From Planctomycetota bacterium (GTDB taxonomy: Bacteria > Planctomycetota > Phycisphaerae > Phycisphaerales > SM1A02): a stretch of DNA of 39,844 nt. Location of the stretch: positions 1 through 39,844 of the forward strand of contig JAAERN010000010.1 of assembly GCA_024230295.1 (NCBI GenBank). The letters are read 5' to 3'. Under the pieces are notes generated by a model that was given only the letters and a program-made list of their open reading frames with translations, was not told the origin of the DNA and searched no databases. Both the position numbers and the translations under genes were made by a program. Shown in pieces: positions 1 to 39,844 of this stretch. Position 1 is the first letter of the stretch. Each line of letters opens with the position of its first letter.

Positions 1-78
1 CGAGCGGCTGAAGGTACCGGTTTGCTAAACCGGCGTAGGGCGTAAGCTCTACCGCGGGTTCGAATCCCGCCCTGTCCG
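1..78 (+). tRNA. tRNA-Ser(GCU), 5' end cut off by window edge
   Basis: The anticodon stem 17-21/29-33 encloses a seven-base loop with anticodon GCT at 24-26. A long variable arm (about 34-53) marks a class II tRNA. The T arm is 54-58/66-70 with loop TTCGAAT, and the 3' acceptor strand CCTGTCC is 71-77 with discriminator G78. CCA is not encoded. The 5' acceptor strand and the first D-arm bases lie before position 1. GCT with a long variable arm gives serine. Confidence 0.93.
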
Positions 79-30367: not shown

Positions 30368-32197
30368 CTAACACGGGCCCCAGGCTTCGAGGATGGCTGC
30401 GAGGTCGACCATGTCAACAACGCCCGAGTCGTCGACATCGCTTGCCGTGCTGTCACCCCAATCGACCATCACCATGAGCAGGTCTTCGACGCCCACAGCG
30501 CCGTCGAGCGTGATGTCAGGGCAGTCGAGAGGACATGTCTCAGCAATCGTCACACCGCCGAAATCAGCCCATGAGCCACCGATTTGATCAATCGTATTGC
30601 ACCAGATGGTGCTCTCCAGAATCGACACTGGGACACTGGAGTCTGAGTAGATGCCTCCGCCGGCTGGTGCATCATTTCGTGCGATCACCGATTCGACCAC
30701 CAAGACGATGCTGTCGTTGAATGTGTAAATGCCACCACCAAAGACCGTGCCGGTATTGCTGCTGAGACTGCACTGAATCAATGACACGGTTGCGTCCGAG
30801 CCAGCAATGACCGCGCCCCCATACGGGGCATAATTGTAATCCAAGGCCGAGTCAACAATCGACACGTCGCTGCCACTCGATACTCGAATCGCCCCGCCAG
30901 CAGACGATGACTCATTGCTCACGATCGTGCAGTCGACGAAGGCTGGACTGCTTTGTACGCATTCGACGCCGCCACCCGACATCCCGGGAGACCATCCTGC
31001 GACATTTTCAGAGATGATGCAGCCGGTGACAATCGGATTGGAGGAGTCTGTGCAAGAGAGTCCCCCGCCATTGCCCAGCGACTCGGTGCCGTCATCGGAC
31101 GAGTTCCTCCAAATGGTGCAATCCGTAATCGTCGGGCTGCTGCTGTTGTCGCATTGAATTCCACCGCCCAGCCCTCCAACGATGCTGTTGTTTTGAATCC
31201 AACAGTTGGTGACACTGCCGTCACTGTCGTCGAAACCAAGTCCGCCACCCGTATTCTCAGCGATCATGCATCCCCAGAGCAGGCCGGACGCACCTGCCGA
31301 GAACTGAATACCCGCCGGGGCATCATCTTCGGTGTTGTCATTCTGGGAAATGTCGCAGTTGATGAGCGTCACGTCGCTCGCGTCCGCCCAGACACCGACG
31401 CCGCGGCCGGGGGCCACATTTCCGATGATGTCGCAGTCTGAAAAGGTCGCCGAGCAGCCTATTGCGCAGTACACGCCTCCGCCGCCCCACGGCCAGTAGG
31501 TTGCCGTATTCAAGGAGATGCTGCAGTTGGAAAATACTGGATTGGAATTCGTGTAAATCGCCACACCACCTCCGAGCGATGTGGTGTTGTTTTCGATGAT
31601 GCAATCCATGAACGTCGGATTGCACGATGACGAGCACATGACACCTCCGCCGCCGAAGTTCGCCGAGTTGCTACTCACGGTGCATCCGATGAAAATGGGG
31701 CTCGAATTGTCGATGCATGCGATACCGCCGCCGCTGTTGCCGGTTTCGTTGTCTGTGAGAACACACCCCGTGACCGTTGGGCTGGAACTGGCATTGCACA
31801 GTATGCCTGCACCTAGATCAAACTCTTCCCAGCCAAAGGAAATGGTAAACCCTTCGATGACAGTCGAAGCAGTTTCGCCGGAGTCGCACCGAATGACGAG
31901 CCGAGTTGACTCGCCACTAATAATCGTCTTGGCAGCAGTGCCGCTTGCCCGAAGCGTGACAGCTTTGCCCAGCATGTCGACGACTTCATTACCCGACCCG
32001 GTGTAGACCCCCGGCGCCACCACAATCTCATCGCCAGAAAAATTCGCCGCGTTGACCGCAGACTGAATATCCATGAAGTCTGCGCCACCGCTGTCGTCAA
32101 CAGTCCATATCTCTGCCGTCGCCGCGGCCGAGCAAACTGCAATCGAAATTCCTACGACGATATGAGCCGCAGCACTGCGGCGATCAATCCAATGCAT
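30368..32197 (-). CDS. Secreted right-handed beta-helix protein with C-terminal GC-type dockerin (paralogue 1)
   Basis: This 609-residue exported protein has a signal peptide ending SAAATAE. The N-terminal motif WTVDDSGGADFMDIQSAV resembles the start of polymorphic outer-membrane/pectate-lyase-like repeat proteins. About fifteen repeats of the form SSPTVTGCVLTDNETGNSGGG build a right-handed parallel beta-helix with Asn/Gly/Ser-rich turns. A dockerin at the C-terminus (ITLDGAVGVEDLLMVMVDWGD, then DVDDSGVVDMVDLAAILEAWGPC) is of GC type. GGAG lies 8 bases before ATG 32197. It is a clear paralogue of 33571-35400 with identical domain order and the same length. Confidence 0.88.
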   Translation of the reverse strand: MHWIDRRSAAAHIVVGISIAVCSAAATAEIWTVDDSGGADFMDIQSAVNAANFSGDEIVVAPGVYTGSGNEVVDMLGKAVTLRASGTAAKTIISGESTRLVIRCDSGETASTVIEGFTISFGWEEFDLGAGILCNASSSPTVTGCVLTDNETGNSGGGIACIDNSSPIFIGCTVSSNSANFGGGGVMCSSSCNPTFMDCIIENNTTSLGGGVAIYTNSNPVFSNCSISLNTATYWPWGGGGVYCAIGCSATFSDCDIIGNVAPGRGVGVWADASDVTLINCDISQNDNTEDDAPAGIQFSAGASGLLWGCMIAENTGGGLGFDDSDGSVTNCWIQNNSIVGGLGGGIQCDNSSSPTITDCTIWRNSSDDGTESLGNGGGLSCTDSSNPIVTGCIISENVAGWSPGMSGGGVECVQSSPAFVDCTIVSNESSSAGGAIRVSSGSDVSIVDSALDYNYAPYGGAVIAGSDATVSLIQCSLSSNTGTVFGGGIYTFNDSIVLVVESVIARNDAPAGGGIYSDSSVPVSILESTIWCNTIDQIGGSWADFGGVTIAETCPLDCPDITLDGAVGVEDLLMVMVDWGDSTASDVDDSGVVDMVDLAAILEAWGPC

Positions 32198-33244: not shown

Positions 33245-33274
33245 AATTGCGGAGGTGCTGTGGGGCGATGGTTT
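33245..33274. repeat. Copy 1 of a 30-bp repeat that can fold
   Basis: AATTGCGGAGGTGCTGTGG starts a 30-bp block that is 28/30 identical to 35652-35681. On the minus strand it can pair with flanking sequence into an 8-bp stem (CACCTCCG with CGGGGGTG, one wobble). It directly follows the dockerin remnant stop, like a terminator of that lost gene. Confidence 0.55.
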
Positions 33275-33359: not shown

Positions 33360-33574
33360 GCTGAGGCATTGCGTCATCGCTGTTGGAGCATGCAATACGA
33401 CTTTGCCGTGAGAAGGATTATCTCAAGGTCGTGCTTGATGTCCGAGTCGAACGCCAGCCTGCAATCCAACTCTTCGAGAAGTTTGGTTTCTACCTCTCGA
33501 AGGTCCGTGAGCAAGACGGGCGTCGAACGCTCGACTTCTTCGTGGAAGGTGCACTGCAGACCAGAACGCGCTAG
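33356..33574 (+). pseudogene. 3' fragment of a GNAT acetyltransferase gene
   Basis: Reading in frame, the segment encodes RR, a TGA stop in place of Gln, then GIASSLLEHAIRLCRE and KVVLDVRVERQPAIQLFEKF and on to DGRRTLDFFVE. This is about 90% identical in protein to the C-terminal half of the intact GNAT at 28472-28966. Most base differences are in third positions, so the source gene was under selection while diverging. The N-terminal half, start codon and native C-terminus are missing, so it should be non-functional. It ends at the beta-helix 2 stop in overlapping CTAG. Confidence 0.8.
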
Positions 33575-35400
33575 GAACATGTTCCCCAGGCTTCGATGAC
33601 TGCCAGCAGATCAATCATGTCAACGACTCCAGACGCATCGACGTCGCTCGATGTGGCCTCGCCCCAGTCAGTCAGCACAGCCATGAGATCCTCGACACCA
33701 ACGCTGCCATCGAGCGTGATATCCGGGCAATCAAGAGGGCACGTCTCGGCAATGAGGACGCCGCCGAGGTCATTCCAATCTCCATGCGTCTGATCTGAGG
33801 TGTTGCACCACACGGTGCTCTCCAGTAACGATGCCCCTCCATCATCAGACAACAGGCCACCACCCTCGGGGGCATCGTTCCATGCGATTGTTGCATTGAT
33901 GCATACCGCGGCACCGTTTTTCTTGGCGTACATCCCACCGCCACTGACTGCTGCCACGTTGCTGGAGAGATCGCAACTTTCTACAAGAAGCATTGAGAAA
34001 TCATCATTGAATATCGCTCCGCCGTAGGGCGATGTATTGAAACTCATTGTCGAATTGAAAAAGGATGCATTGCCATCTTCGAGATACACAGCGCCGCCTG
34101 CTCCGGTTGCCGTGTTGCTGTTGAGAACACAATCAACAAAGGTAGGACTGCTGCTATCGGCGTACACGCCACCTCCAAAGACCCCCGCCTCCCACCCAGC
34201 AATGTTTTCTGAGATGACACAACGGGACACGGCTGGGCTTGACTCGCCTAGGCAGGCAAGTCCCCCTCCACCCCCCACCGAACGATCGAATGCTGAATCG
34301 CTTGAGTTTCGCCAAATCGTGCAATCTGTAATGGTCGGACTACTCCCGTTGTCGCAGCGGATCCCCCCGCCTTTGCCGCCCGCCATGACATTGTCTTGCA
34401 CCCACGTTCTGCTGATATGTCCGGAACTGTCATCGAATCCAATACCGCCGCCAGAGTTCTCCGCGATCAAGCAGCCTCGTATAATGGCGACAGATTCCAT
34501 ATTCAGTTGTATGCCTCCTGCCGCATCTCCAAAGATGTTTGTGTTGCCAGTAATGTCACAATCGGTCAGCGTGATGTCGCTCGCGAAAGCGATCACTCCG
34601 GCGCCGTACCCAGGGGCTTCATTGTCGGCAATGACACACTCTGAAAATGTGATATGAGCATTCGTGTCAGAGTAGACGCCGCCCCCCCCATATCCTTCTG
34701 AGGTCGCACTGTTTCCCGTGACTCGGCAATCCGAAAAGAAGGGTTTTGATGATGAAGTCGCAGCGATACCGCCGCCGATAGAAGCCGGGTCGTTGTCGAT
34801 GATGTCGCACGCAATAAATAGAGGTTGACTTGATGAACTGCAATACACACCGCTTCCATTGGAATTGGCGCTATTGGCATTGAATTCACAGTCGATGAAA
34901 GTGGGATGTGACTGATTTTCCATTGAAACACCACCGCCATTGACATCAGTCGAGTTCAGCGTAAAGACACACCCTGTCACCGTCGGGCTCGCCGTCACGC
35001 ACCTCATTCCCCCCCCATGATCCAACGTGATGGAGCAGTGCCGAATGGTAAAACCGTCGATGATCGTGGTCGCTGTCTCACCATCGCTGCACATAATTCC
35101 TCGACGCAATGATTCGCCGTCAATGATCGTCTCGGCCGCCGTTCCACTTGCCTGCAGTGTCACAGCCTTTCCGAGCATATCCACGACTTCAGAACCAACG
35201 CCCGTGTAGATGCCAGGAGCCACGATGATCGTGTCGCCTTGGCTCGCTGCACTGATCGCTGATTGAATATCCAAGAAGTCGGCGCCGCCACCACCGTTGA
35301 CTGTCCATGTCTCCGCGATGGCTGGAAACGCGATGAGGGACAACGCAAGGATTGAAGTGGCCAAAGACACTTCAGCGGAGCGACGAGGTATCAGGACCAT
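33571..35400 (-). CDS. Secreted right-handed beta-helix protein with C-terminal GC-type dockerin (paralogue 2)
   Basis: This 609-residue protein is the paralogue of 30368-32197. It has a signal peptide (to FPAIAE), WTVNGGGGADFLDIQSAI, repeated beta-helix turns (ASPTVTGCVFTLNSTDVNGGG and similar) and a C-terminal GC-type dockerin (ITLDGSVGVEDLMAVLTDWGE, DVDASGVVDMIDLLAVIEAWGTCS). ATG 35400 was chosen over ATG 35430 because GGGAG lies 8 bases upstream and the length then equals the paralogue. It is likely displayed on the cell surface. The role could be adhesion or glycan binding, but no catalytic residues were recognised. Confidence 0.88.
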   Translation of the reverse strand: MVLIPRRSAEVSLATSILALSLIAFPAIAETWTVNGGGGADFLDIQSAISAASQGDTIIVAPGIYTGVGSEVVDMLGKAVTLQASGTAAETIIDGESLRRGIMCSDGETATTIIDGFTIRHCSITLDHGGGMRCVTASPTVTGCVFTLNSTDVNGGGVSMENQSHPTFIDCEFNANSANSNGSGVYCSSSSQPLFIACDIIDNDPASIGGGIAATSSSKPFFSDCRVTGNSATSEGYGGGGVYSDTNAHITFSECVIADNEAPGYGAGVIAFASDITLTDCDITGNTNIFGDAAGGIQLNMESVAIIRGCLIAENSGGGIGFDDSSGHISRTWVQDNVMAGGKGGGIRCDNGSSPTITDCTIWRNSSDSAFDRSVGGGGGLACLGESSPAVSRCVISENIAGWEAGVFGGGVYADSSSPTFVDCVLNSNTATGAGGAVYLEDGNASFFNSTMSFNTSPYGGAIFNDDFSMLLVESCDLSSNVAAVSGGGMYAKKNGAAVCINATIAWNDAPEGGGLLSDDGGASLLESTVWCNTSDQTHGDWNDLGGVLIAETCPLDCPDITLDGSVGVEDLMAVLTDWGEATSSDVDASGVVDMIDLLAVIEAWGTCS

Positions 35401-35503
35401 GTGGTTTCTCCCATTTCTCGTCACCAGCATACGTTGAGAAATGCTGCGGCTTCATGATGGCCCCGCGATCTTCTCGAGCGGCAACCAGTTTGGCGCAGAG
35501 CCA

Positions 35504-35558
35504 AGCATCTGTGGCCGATGAATCAAGGGATGCGGTGGTGTACTTTGTCAACTGAGCC
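35504..35558. repeat. Copy 1 of a 55-bp direct repeat upstream of secreted-protein genes
   Basis: This segment matches 39785-39838 at about 47 of 55 positions with one single-base gap. It lies about 104 bp upstream of the beta-helix 2 start. The gap breaks any shared reading frame, so it is a non-coding element such as a promoter region or a recombination flank. Confidence 0.6.
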
Positions 35559-35631
35559 ACAACACGGCGGTGTCTGGGGAATCTACTGCGCCTGCCACAT
35601 AGCCAAACCCCTCTTTTGGACTGCTCAGGAG

Positions 35632-35681
35632 ACCACCACCACCACCACCACAATTGCGGAGGTGCTGTGGGGTTATGGTTT
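35632..35681. repeat. (ACC)6 microsatellite and copy 2 of the 30-bp repeat
   Basis: Six ACC units (35632-35649) run into the second copy of the repeat (35652-35681). On the minus strand the GGT run can pair with the CACC segment of the repeat to form a hairpin. A looser third version occurs on the opposite strand near 37036-37078. Confidence 0.6.
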
Positions 35682-36856: not shown

Positions 36857-37170
36857 GATCGGAGCGATTTGCTTCCCCCGTTTCGAACCACTCCTGTACC
36901 AAGGTGTTCCGAACAGTTGTGACAGACGCGACAAGGCATAGAGACTTTGAGTGAGCAGGCTCCTTCACACGACGAGGATGGCCGCAGAGCGGACCTACAC
37001 GAACGCAAAGGGGAGACAGCCATAGGTCCTTGCCAGAAGCCCCACCACCACCTCACAGCACATCCGTATTCACAGGGGTGGTGTTCTTGAGATAGCGGCG
37101 CATTGCTTCTGAAGAGGTACGCAAGGCAATTTACAGAAACAGTTGTTGCTCCCCTACGTTCCGTTCTCTA
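36857..37170. other. Intergenic region with no supported gene
   Basis: This 314-bp gap holds a loose third version of the fold-back repeat near 37036-37078 (CACCACC with GGGGTGGTG). No coding region, tRNA or promoter was convincing. Confidence 0.4.
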
Positions 37171-37472
37171 ATGGACCTTCTGTGGCCTCGGACCGTCTAT
37201 AGGGGGGGAGCAACGGCTACGGCCAATGCAACGTCCCTGCTGGTGAGACCTTTGTGCAGGTTGCTGCGGGCATGTTCCACACCATCGTCCCTGTTGCTCC
37301 ACCTGATTGTGATGGGAACATCAACGGAGACGGCGAAGTCGGTGTCGACGAGATCCTCGGAGTGGTCGCAGCGTGGGGCACGGACGATGCTGACGCAGAC
37401 GTCAACGACGACGGCATCGTCGACACGAACGACCTTTTGTTTGTCCTCGCCGCCTGGGGTCCCTGCTCATAA
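37171..37472 (+). pseudogene. Frameshifted RCC1-like/dockerin gene remnant
   Basis: The first frame gives MDLLWPRTVYRGG, then a G-run at 37201-37207. The next frame continues SNGYGQCNVPAGETFVQVAAGMFHT, an RCC1-type repeat. It is followed by a GC-type dockerin (DCDGNINGDGEVGVDEILGVVAAWG, then DADVNDDGIVDTNDLLFVLAAWGPCS). A TAG just before the second frame and the frame change at the G-run show it is broken. There is no signal peptide and no earlier RCC1 repeats, so this is a 3' remnant. Confidence 0.75.
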
Positions 37473-37948: not shown

Positions 37949-39739
37949 TCACTCTGCAAAGTCAACTGTCACAACGCCCAGACCGTACGCGCCTGACTGA
38001 CTTCCAACGCGGATGTAGAGCCACCCATCCCCATCGATAACCGGTGCTGACACCTCTGAGTACCCCGGCTGGCAGCCAATGGGATCAACCGCATCGCCGT
38101 TGCATGCGATCTGCATCAACTCGCCCGGGCTAGGGTCTTCAGGACCTTGATACAGCACGAGTGATGTATCAAAGGACCCCTCACTGCAGAGGGATACGAT
38201 TACGGTCCCATCTGCTGGCGGATTGAACTTCATCCAAACATCAACCAAGTCAATCCAGTCCAAGTCGGTGTCCTTGCACATCAGTGCATCGACTGGTTCG
38301 TCACTTGCCATTGCATACGTGTTGGTGAATGGATTGCGGCCAAGGTCCGCAATCTGCGCAGTGGCCACCGTGTCCCCGCGGCCACAGGCCCAACTACACG
38401 CTGTGTTCTCGAACACTGAGACACCGCCAGCGGACTCGCAAACAGAAGGGGGAATGAGAGTGACACAAGTTCCCTGTATGCAACAATCGGCTCGCATGGG
38501 CTCATAGGAACACTCACCAAAGAGGCATCGATCAAACGTGTATGGGTCCCCGTCGTCGCAGTCGGATTCCGAGAGACACTCGAAGCAGGGGCCGAATGCC
38601 GCTATGACGCTGAGAATGTCGCCAACGCCAATCACGCCGTCGCCATCAACATCTGCATTGCAGCCACTGCAATCTTGCCCATACCCCTCAATGATGGCCA
38701 ATAGGTCGTCCACATTGGTGGTGTAGTCCCAATTTGTGTCGCTCGGGCACGGGTGATGCAGATTCGTATTGAGGTATGCCGTTCGGAGGTTCACTGCTGT
38801 CGCACGCATGCGATCGATGCCATCGGGGGTGAACTCGTGCATGCATGGAACCGCGGTGTAGGCCATGTAATTCTCGGTGTCCGGTGTGTAGACCCCATCG
38901 CTCTGGCACGGCCCGGGGTTATCAGCGCAATGCGATAGGAGTTCGCAGGTATACGGATCAACACAGGATTCAAACGACAGGCCAAAGTCAGCCGGAGTGT
39001 CGCAGAGTAAGTCCCCGGCTTCTAGGCAGTTAGTGCGTTCGACGCATTCGTTGCCATTGTAGGCCTCATGGGTATGGAAGAGATCGAACCAGTGTCCGAC
39101 TTCGTGGCAGAACACGCCATCAACATCCCACCAGCCCATGCATTCAGGGCTGATGGCGATTGTGTCGAGCGTGGAGAATGTAAAGGCGGAAATGCCACAC
39201 AGGCCGCCCATTGATTCGGGTGCGGCCCAATAGATGTTCAGCGCGTTCTCGAGTCGCCGGACTGTTCGAAAGTCATCCACGTTAGGAATATCTTCAAACC
39301 AGTTGGGGTTGATGATGCGATCCGTCACGGGATGCGCGGCAAACTGAATGCCCGTGGGCGCCCAGATCTCGTTGGCGAGTTCGAGGTAGTGGTCCAACTC
39401 CCACTGATCCACAGCGCGGTTTGCGGCCCACTCTTCGAGAACATGCCACGCAATCGTGACTTCCACGATCTCACCCGTGTCGCCTCGCAGTTGATAGGCG
39501 CCCCGGTCGACGAGATCCTTTACTCGCTGCCAGTCAGATGATTGGAGCGGAGATCCGCAGAAGGGGGAGTATTGAACAGTGTCCCCTTCGAGCAACTTCC
39601 GAATCTCATCACCATTGCTGGCCGCATCAATCGCTTCTTGAATAGTGGCGTAGTCCGCAGGCACATTGATCGTCGCGGCGGTTGTCACACCACACACGAG
39701 CAAGGCCATCATCGCTGCGGTCAGTATTCGCTGCATCAT
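37949..39739 (-). CDS. Secreted M43-like metalloprotease with internal dockerin; chimeric N-terminus
   Basis: This 596-residue protein has a signal peptide (residues 1-22). Residues 23-46 (ATINVPADYATIQEAIDAAS and on) read like the start of a beta-helix/pectate-lyase domain and then stop abruptly. A pappalysin-like M43 zincin follows. HEVGHWFDLFHTHE at 212-225 gives zinc ligands His212, His216 and His222 with catalytic Glu213. The usual Gly three residues before His222 is Asp219. CDTPAD and the Met-turn NYMAYT (Met292) fit M43. A GC-type dockerin (about 335-395) comes next, then Cys-rich segments and a C-terminal PPC-like domain. GGGAG lies before ATG 39739. It is probably exported and degrades extracellular proteins. 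Confidence 0.85.
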   Translation of the reverse strand: MMQRILTAAMMALLVCGVTTAATINVPADYATIQEAIDAASNGDEIRKLLEGDTVQYSPFCGSPLQSSDWQRVKDLVDRGAYQLRGDTGEIVEVTIAWHVLEEWAANRAVDQWELDHYLELANEIWAPTGIQFAAHPVTDRIINPNWFEDIPNVDDFRTVRRLENALNIYWAAPESMGGLCGISAFTFSTLDTIAISPECMGWWDVDGVFCHEVGHWFDLFHTHEAYNGNECVERTNCLEAGDLLCDTPADFGLSFESCVDPYTCELLSHCADNPGPCQSDGVYTPDTENYMAYTAVPCMHEFTPDGIDRMRATAVNLRTAYLNTNLHHPCPSDTNWDYTTNVDDLLAIIEGYGQDCSGCNADVDGDGVIGVGDILSVIAAFGPCFECLSESDCDDGDPYTFDRCLFGECSYEPMRADCCIQGTCVTLIPPSVCESAGGVSVFENTACSWACGRGDTVATAQIADLGRNPFTNTYAMASDEPVDALMCKDTDLDWIDLVDVWMKFNPPADGTVIVSLCSEGSFDTSLVLYQGPEDPSPGELMQIACNGDAVDPIGCQPGYSEVSAPVIDGDGWLYIRVGSQSGAYGLGVVTVDFAE

Positions 39740-39784
39740 GTCATCTCTCCCTCGGGACCCCGGGGCTCCGCTTCCACCGAAGGT

Positions 39785-39838
39785 AGCATCTGCGGCCGAT
39801 GGATCAAGGGTGCGATGGTGTACTGGGTCACATGAGCC
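39785..39838. repeat. Copy 2 of the 55-bp direct repeat
   Basis: It lies about 46 bp upstream of the M43-like protease start and matches 35504-35558. The repeat lies at the window edge, so neighbouring sequence is missing. Confidence 0.6.
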
Positions 39839-39844
39839 GAAAAA

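Follow-up and report, generated by a model that had tools for sequence, protein, structure and literature searches.

Probable capture of the 5' end of an island-type beta-helix gene by an M43 metalloprotease gene in a planctomycete

Here, we provide sequence evidence that an M43 metalloprotease gene of an uncultured planctomycete is probably a chimera, however its parts came to be joined, with a 5' module that derives from a beta-helix gene of a type found in small genomic islands and a remainder that belongs to metalloprotease family M43. The gene lies on the minus strand at 37949..39739 of the window, i.e., the whole stretch of 39,844 nucleotides that was analysed. Its 5' module would consist of an upstream region, the translation start and a signal peptide, together with ~25 residues of the mature protein that make up a beta-helix N-cap, and the M43 part would have lost its own signal peptide. 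The likeliest history is a body replacement in an island-type beta-helix gene, which would make it a Sec-type parallel of terminal reassortment. One member of a tandem array of beta-helix genes may have had its body exchanged for M43-bearing DNA while its 5' and 3' ends stayed in place.

The protease gene and the source of its start

The open reading frame encodes 596 amino acids, and its N-terminus reads MMQRILTAAMMALLVCGVTTAATINVPADYATIQEAIDAASNGDEI. Codons 1-46 (39602..39739, minus strand) hold a signal peptide, as judged by eye, and the beta-helix N-cap VPADYATIQEAIDAASNGDEI. They are followed by a junction segment, RKLLEGDTVQYS (codons 47-58; 39566..39601, minus strand), that by eye is neither beta-helix- nor M43-like. 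The sequence-only reading had described a signal peptide and beta-helix start that switch without a linker to a zincin; the order of these parts stands, but not the direct switch, as the ~12 residues of the junction segment fit neither family. Behind them, the protein shows an M43 pattern (C..., ..GAY..., ..HVLE) that in M43 relatives is found shortly behind signal peptides (both by eye). Pfam places Peptidase_M43 (PF05572) at residues 209-313 (38801..39115, minus strand) with an E value of 3e-7 and a score of 30.9 bits, above the cut-off of 23 bits. The HEVGH of the zinc motif lies at 39092..39106 on the same strand, and the match includes the Met-turn-like NYMAYT. The zinc motif (HExxHxxxxxH, here HEVGHWFDLFH) and NYMAYT align with those of mirolysin, the sole solved structure matched by sequence (phmmer, E 5e-4). 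A dockerin-like tail (38582..38752, minus strand; residues ~330-386) recurs widely in the genome, where the whole protease as query gives 89 matches that fall mostly in this tail. The C-terminal module (37955..38500, minus strand; residues 414-595) is 34-45% identical to stretches of several other long open frames of the same genome.

Both neighbouring beta-helix genes match beta-helix models of the PF13229 type in Pfam, and the protease matches none at E values up to 1; beta-helix repeats are absent from it and the N-cap alone represents the beta-helix. From family knowledge, we predict an exported, dockerin-tailed protease. It would be Sec-exported via the signal peptide (judged by eye) of the beta-helix gene and would begin with an orphan N-cap, left without its helix. 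With zinc motif and Met-turn in place, the protease domain would not be affected.

The closest match to the start region comes from a congener (G001). In a blastn search, window positions 39601-39844 matched G001:C3:1639-1881 with 84% identity over 244 bp (E 6e-64), and this match breaks off at the junction, 39601. It covers the upstream region of 105 bases (39740..39844, minus strand), which is common to the G001 beta-helix gene and, in part, to an FG-GAP gene of G002. Identical columns between the window and G001:C3 amount to 84/105 upstream and 121/138 in the coding part. Residues 1-47 of the protease have 81% amino-acid identity to the G001 protein, as compared to at most 59% for the other start-region matches in 61 genomes. 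The G001 gene encodes a beta-helix protein of 342 codons (PF13229, E 5e-24). A 244-bp match that ends sharply at the junction supports the earlier proposal that the protease gene captured its start from a beta-helix gene by recombination. The best donor match is not one of the two neighbouring genes but the G001:C3 gene in a tmRNA-linked island.

This closest donor match is of a beta-helix type unlike both neighbours in the window. The neighbours bh1 (33571..35430) and bh2 (30368..32197), both open reading frames on the minus strand with Pfam matches, do adjoin as two full beta-helix genes, but the similarity seen earlier between the openings is only distant. The bh1 and bh2 proteins open with WTV...GGADF.DIQSA and the protease cap reads VPADYATIQEA; the protease opening is 38% identical to bh1 over 42 residues (E 0.2), and the farther bh2 was not matched at E values up to 10. 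The shared 55-bp element reported earlier was recovered at both of its places, 35504-35558 and 39785-39838 (85% over 55 bp), but before the nearer gene only: the copy before bh1 (35490..35558, minus strand) shares only part of the upstream region, and no copy was found before bh2. A 21-base pattern built from both copies has exact fits at these two places only in the genome; at three mismatches it finds one extra place, as does the reversed control.

Two candidate signals in this region were rejected. A promoter read by eye (TTGATC N16 TACCTT as -35/-10) was not recovered in a consensus scan, which found 0 against a mean of 0.2 in shuffles, and a leader hairpin seen by eye gave z-scores of -0.57 to +0.91 in four leaders, no better than shuffles. 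As the consensus scan found no sigma-70-type promoter in the 5' module, we term the segment upstream region only.

With the 243-bp start region as DNA query, the nine genus genomes yielded a match in G002:C6 (86% over 103 bp) that comprises 77 upstream and 26 coding bases and reaches to about codon 9. Under laxer scoring this match lengthens to 205 bp at 73%, and its end is therefore uncertain. The match precedes a gene for FG-GAP repeats (PF14312, E 2e-42), whose reading frame is cut by the contig end. A further copy in G003:C200 (82% over 67 upstream bases) has no secreted-type gene behind it among open reading frames of at least 120 codons, and weaker, shorter matches to the start region occur in all nine genus genomes. 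A sequence model of the upstream region was built from five sequences, two from the source genome and one each from G001, G002, and G003; its strong places are these five source sequences, in four of the nine genus genomes. The upstream region had been expected to be absent from other lineages, and in 181 family genomes the model indeed gave no strong place beyond its sources, with borderline matches in five other genomes (E 9e-4 to 0.01). The same 5' region is found on unrelated bodies, namely M43 in the window and beta-helix in G001:C3 over 244 bp, and FG-GAP in G002:C6 over 103 bp only.

M43 relatives and the contig end

Used as query, the M43 part matches 37 of 400 order genomes at an E value of 1e-8, the source genome included. 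The VPADY cap is present on the N-terminal side in 0 of 25 loci of M43 relatives, nor does a paralogue in the same genome carry it. One locus (L083) is truncated by a contig end, so that 24 of the 25 starts are informative; in L080, 260 residues before the zinc motif were read and the whole frame was covered by the cap scan. Related M43 proteins had been predicted to have unrelated N-termini, and the informative loci agree with this: none has a beta-helix opening, and no orthologous M43 protein with the same N-terminal segment is among them. When all fetched loci were scanned, a cap before a zinc motif was seen in the window ORF and its copies only. The distinct zinc-motif ORFs without a cap number 27, of which one (L030) is matrixin-like rather than M43.

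Seven long M43 proteins were scanned for further modules. Two have beta-helix, three have FG-GAP repeats, and two have a long unassigned front part; in five of the seven, the best-scoring stretch of the extra repeat module lies behind the M43 domain. These combinations show that modules are shuffled in the family and that the order in the window is unusual. M43 followed by beta-helix is seen in L180 (G014:C40) and L185 (G008:C56), and M43 combined with FG-GAP in L181, L184, and L186.

That the N-cap is an old part of the M43 lineage, and the domain order inherited, is very improbable. The presence of M43 and beta-helix in one protein in G014 and G008 would suit such a history, but it is opposed by the position of the extra repeat module behind M43, by the lack of a cap in front of any informative relative, and by the noncoding upstream region, which is also common to a beta-helix gene.

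The nearest relatives of the body among the 400 order genomes are both in G287 (51% and 46% identical). The 51% relative has its own signal peptide (by eye), and a beta-helix gene begins 195 bp behind the other M43 gene on the same strand. This arrangement bears on a variant of the chimera, whose odds overlap with it, in which a deletion fused codon 46 of an upstream same-strand beta-helix gene to the M43 propeptide. We consider this variant possible, though rather unlikely. M43 and beta-helix genes can evidently adjoin on one strand, as in G287, and the window has two more beta-helix genes on the strand of the protease, but the gene order in G287 is opposite to the one that a simple deletion requires.

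Since the window is the entire contig C10 of the source genome, the contig end at 39844 truncates the shared region; the junction is 243 bp from this end. The end of another contig, C82 (L089, 1-39), repeats 39 bases of the protease's signal-peptide DNA exactly, behind a different upstream region; in the window, the repeated word lies at 39674-39712. The gene start at the C82 end resembles that of a cap gene on contig C147 (79% over 134 bp around the start codon). The C82 end points to a further join in the start region or to a repeat that broke the assembly, and it hints at alternative junctions within one genome. The 39-base repeat may have troubled the assembly.

An assembly chimera, in which the last 243 bp come from a beta-helix gene elsewhere and were misjoined to an M43 gene, would be consistent with a junction so close to the contig end, with the exact repeat of a word of the module at the end of C82, and with a genome of 2.70 Mb in 180 contigs and 3.34% estimated contamination. 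We nevertheless judge it improbable: the reading frame is open across the junction, the repeated word lies ~70 bp upstream of the junction and not on it, and no close intact copy from which the segment could stem was seen. A genome search returned no other intact, near-identical copy of this start together with its upstream region; because it also missed the 55-bp copy at 35504, this search bears on close copies only. In addition, a matching island-type 3' tail lies on the same contig and strand, as described below.

Among collections of which some may lack records of the source genome or a very close one, genome_contigs held no second copy of the fusion; its 27 loci all matched within residues 1-96 only. 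Cap-pattern ORFs, all lacking a zinc motif, were seen at 21 of these loci, and the remaining six had no cap-bearing ORF with the second pattern. Searches for the junction in viral_contigs and plasmids returned nothing, and in 61 relatives and 392 phylum genomes no match beyond the window spanned the cap and the M43 body. Three start matches in the 61 relatives (L020, L023, and G020:C18) run past residue 46, to 63-67; L020 and L023 represent beta-helix starts and lack a zinc motif.

tRNA- and tmRNA-linked islands and the layout of the window

The beta-helix gene of G001:C3 sits between a tmRNA gene and a repeated tmRNA 3' end (25/25 bases; L088, 442-466). The empty site is the tmRNA locus of the source genome on contig C16 (G000:C16). 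This locus shows synteny on its far side (71.5% over 11 kb); its tmRNA is 93.5% alike, and the sequence that follows resembles that of G001 beyond the repeat (64.5% over 141 bp). Longer frames that score as Phage_integrase contain parts with 48-49% identity to a G001 fragment located between the tmRNA and the beta-helix gene (1987-2547). The fragment itself gave no integrase match in Pfam, PHROGs, or NCBIfam and no match in the source genome at an E value of 1e-5. Its integrase-frame homologues are accompanied by a tRNA or tmRNA gene in 12 of 14 fetched loci, by tmRNA in four. G002:C11 carries a second island, in which a recombinase fragment (PF00589, E 8e-7) and a beta-helix gene lie between tRNA-Gly and a repeat of the tRNA end (27/30 bases). 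The islands of G001 and G002 measure ~2.1 kb and ~2.5 kb and contain recombinase fragments (putative in G001) and one secreted-protein gene each. A stretch of 234-273 bp at and behind tRNA-Gly, at the end of the recombinase fragment, is common to G002:C11, G002:C6, and contig C82 of the source genome.

Three of the four copies of the upstream module other than that of the protease (G001:C3, G002:C6, and G003:C200) lie ~0.8 kb or less downstream of a tRNA or tmRNA gene; the fourth, before bh1, is not close behind such a gene. We propose that the donor type moves within the genus on small islands integrated at tRNA or tmRNA genes, which would explain the same module, whole or in part, before three unrelated bodies. 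A general tie of beta-helix starts to tRNA genes was considered and rejected (4 of 44 loci, some overlapping, vs. 1 of 40 others). ARAGORN reports no tRNA or tmRNA in the window, and because the contig ends 105 bp upstream of the protease start codon, an island link of the protease locus itself is not seen. At window positions 1-78, we noted the 3' part of a tRNA-Ser-like gene (anticodon GCT, by eye) inside which the contig starts; ARAGORN does not report it. At another G001 locus (L144, G001:C57; 6228-9600), two copies of a tRNA-Thr region flank a ~3.3-kb stretch that contains a beta-helix gene and encodes a DUF4041/phrog_1847 protein; the last tRNA bases are missing from the left copy.

A 3' tail of 41 bases stands behind the beta-helix genes of both islands (G001:C3 and G002:C11). 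It recurs in the window at 35591..35631 on the minus strand, i.e., the strand of the protease gene, 3.9 kb downstream of the protease start region and with six mismatches (35/41 as in the G002:C11 island). A search of the window and the fetched loci (0.9 Mb, overlaps included) at up to 12 mismatches in 41 bases found the tail elsewhere in these two islands only. Judged by these matches, the 5' and 3' ends of an island-type beta-helix gene are both present in the window, separated by 3.9 kb. Between the two ends lie the M43 body, a dockerin-ended remnant on the plus strand, and a PEP-CTERM-like gene on the plus strand (by eye). The 3' tail that the missing gene left behind lies beyond the M43 gene, 3.9 kb downstream, a position that fits replacement or insertion better than deletion.

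A gene remnant at 37160-37472 on the plus strand of the window combines a dockerin-like end with a stretch that by eye resembles RCC1. A 3'-end palindrome, CCCCACAGCACCTCCG... (35639..35681, minus strand), is a dispersed element that lies beside the 3' tail. In the form CCCCACAGCACCTCCGN6CGGGGGTGTTG, it occurs at 33249-33265 and 35656-35672 of the window and at five more places in the genome. With at most one mismatch, its 17-base core has seven genome sites vs. none for the reversed control, and at four of the seven sites it follows a dockerin-like gene end (by eye).

A more far-reaching proposal is that the 5' module acts as a moving or resident export platform, with bodies (beta-helix, FG-GAP, M43), 5' modules, and 3' tails freely combined near tRNA- or tmRNA-targeted recombinases, perhaps in an ongoing switching within the population. 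It appears improbable; if true, one recombination would make any coding segment expressed, exported, and dockerin-tailed. For the body replacement that we favour, the many secreted-type proteins with similar dockerin-like tails in the genome suggest that the case offers a testable route to the assembly of such a repertoire.

Comparison with known systems

No description of the protease gene or of such cassettes was found among the literature matches listed, which were open-licence papers. The protein itself resembles the M43 protease mirolysin (PDB 6r7w) in its zinc motif (HEVGHW.DL.H) and its Met-turn region (NYM.YT). Unlike mirolysin, it has a beta-helix cap, a dockerin-like tail, and a further module, and the match between the two is weak (~108 residues, E 5e-4).

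The Vpma and Vsa surface proteins of mycoplasmas are switched from a single promoter (PMC2268961). In such systems, various surface-protein bodies can come to stand behind one 5' end. The window gene and its counterparts are alike in that one 5' end stands before different bodies. In contrast, the present data show no inversion sites, resident recombinase, or alternative junctions within one genome.

Tycheposons range from 4 to 200 kbp (PMC10872708). The islands described here share with such tRNA-targeted islands a repeat of the 3' end of a tRNA-type gene and cargo in between; a tyrosine recombinase beside that gene is represented by fragments, putative in G001. Set against tycheposons, the G001 and G002 islands are small, at ~2.1 and ~2.5 kb, and hold recombinase fragments and one secreted-protein gene; the window locus cannot be placed in one.

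The closest parallel is with the terminal reassortment of type III effectors, which Stavrinides, Ma and Guttman reportedly described in 2006. There, as described in PMC5675462, a 5' end with an export signal is placed on unrelated bodies, which creates new exported proteins in one step. The window gene likewise joins a 5' end with an export signal to an unrelated body. Its signal is Sec-like (by eye) and its host an environmental planctomycete, in contrast to those effectors. It would give a concrete example, beyond pathogens and type III secretion, of how a single join may yield a newly exported protein in a bacterium, with a donor type tied to small islands beside tRNA or tmRNA genes. It further differs from terminal reassortment in that the transferred piece leaves the mature protein with a structural N-cap and in that the donor type resides in a tmRNA island of a congener.
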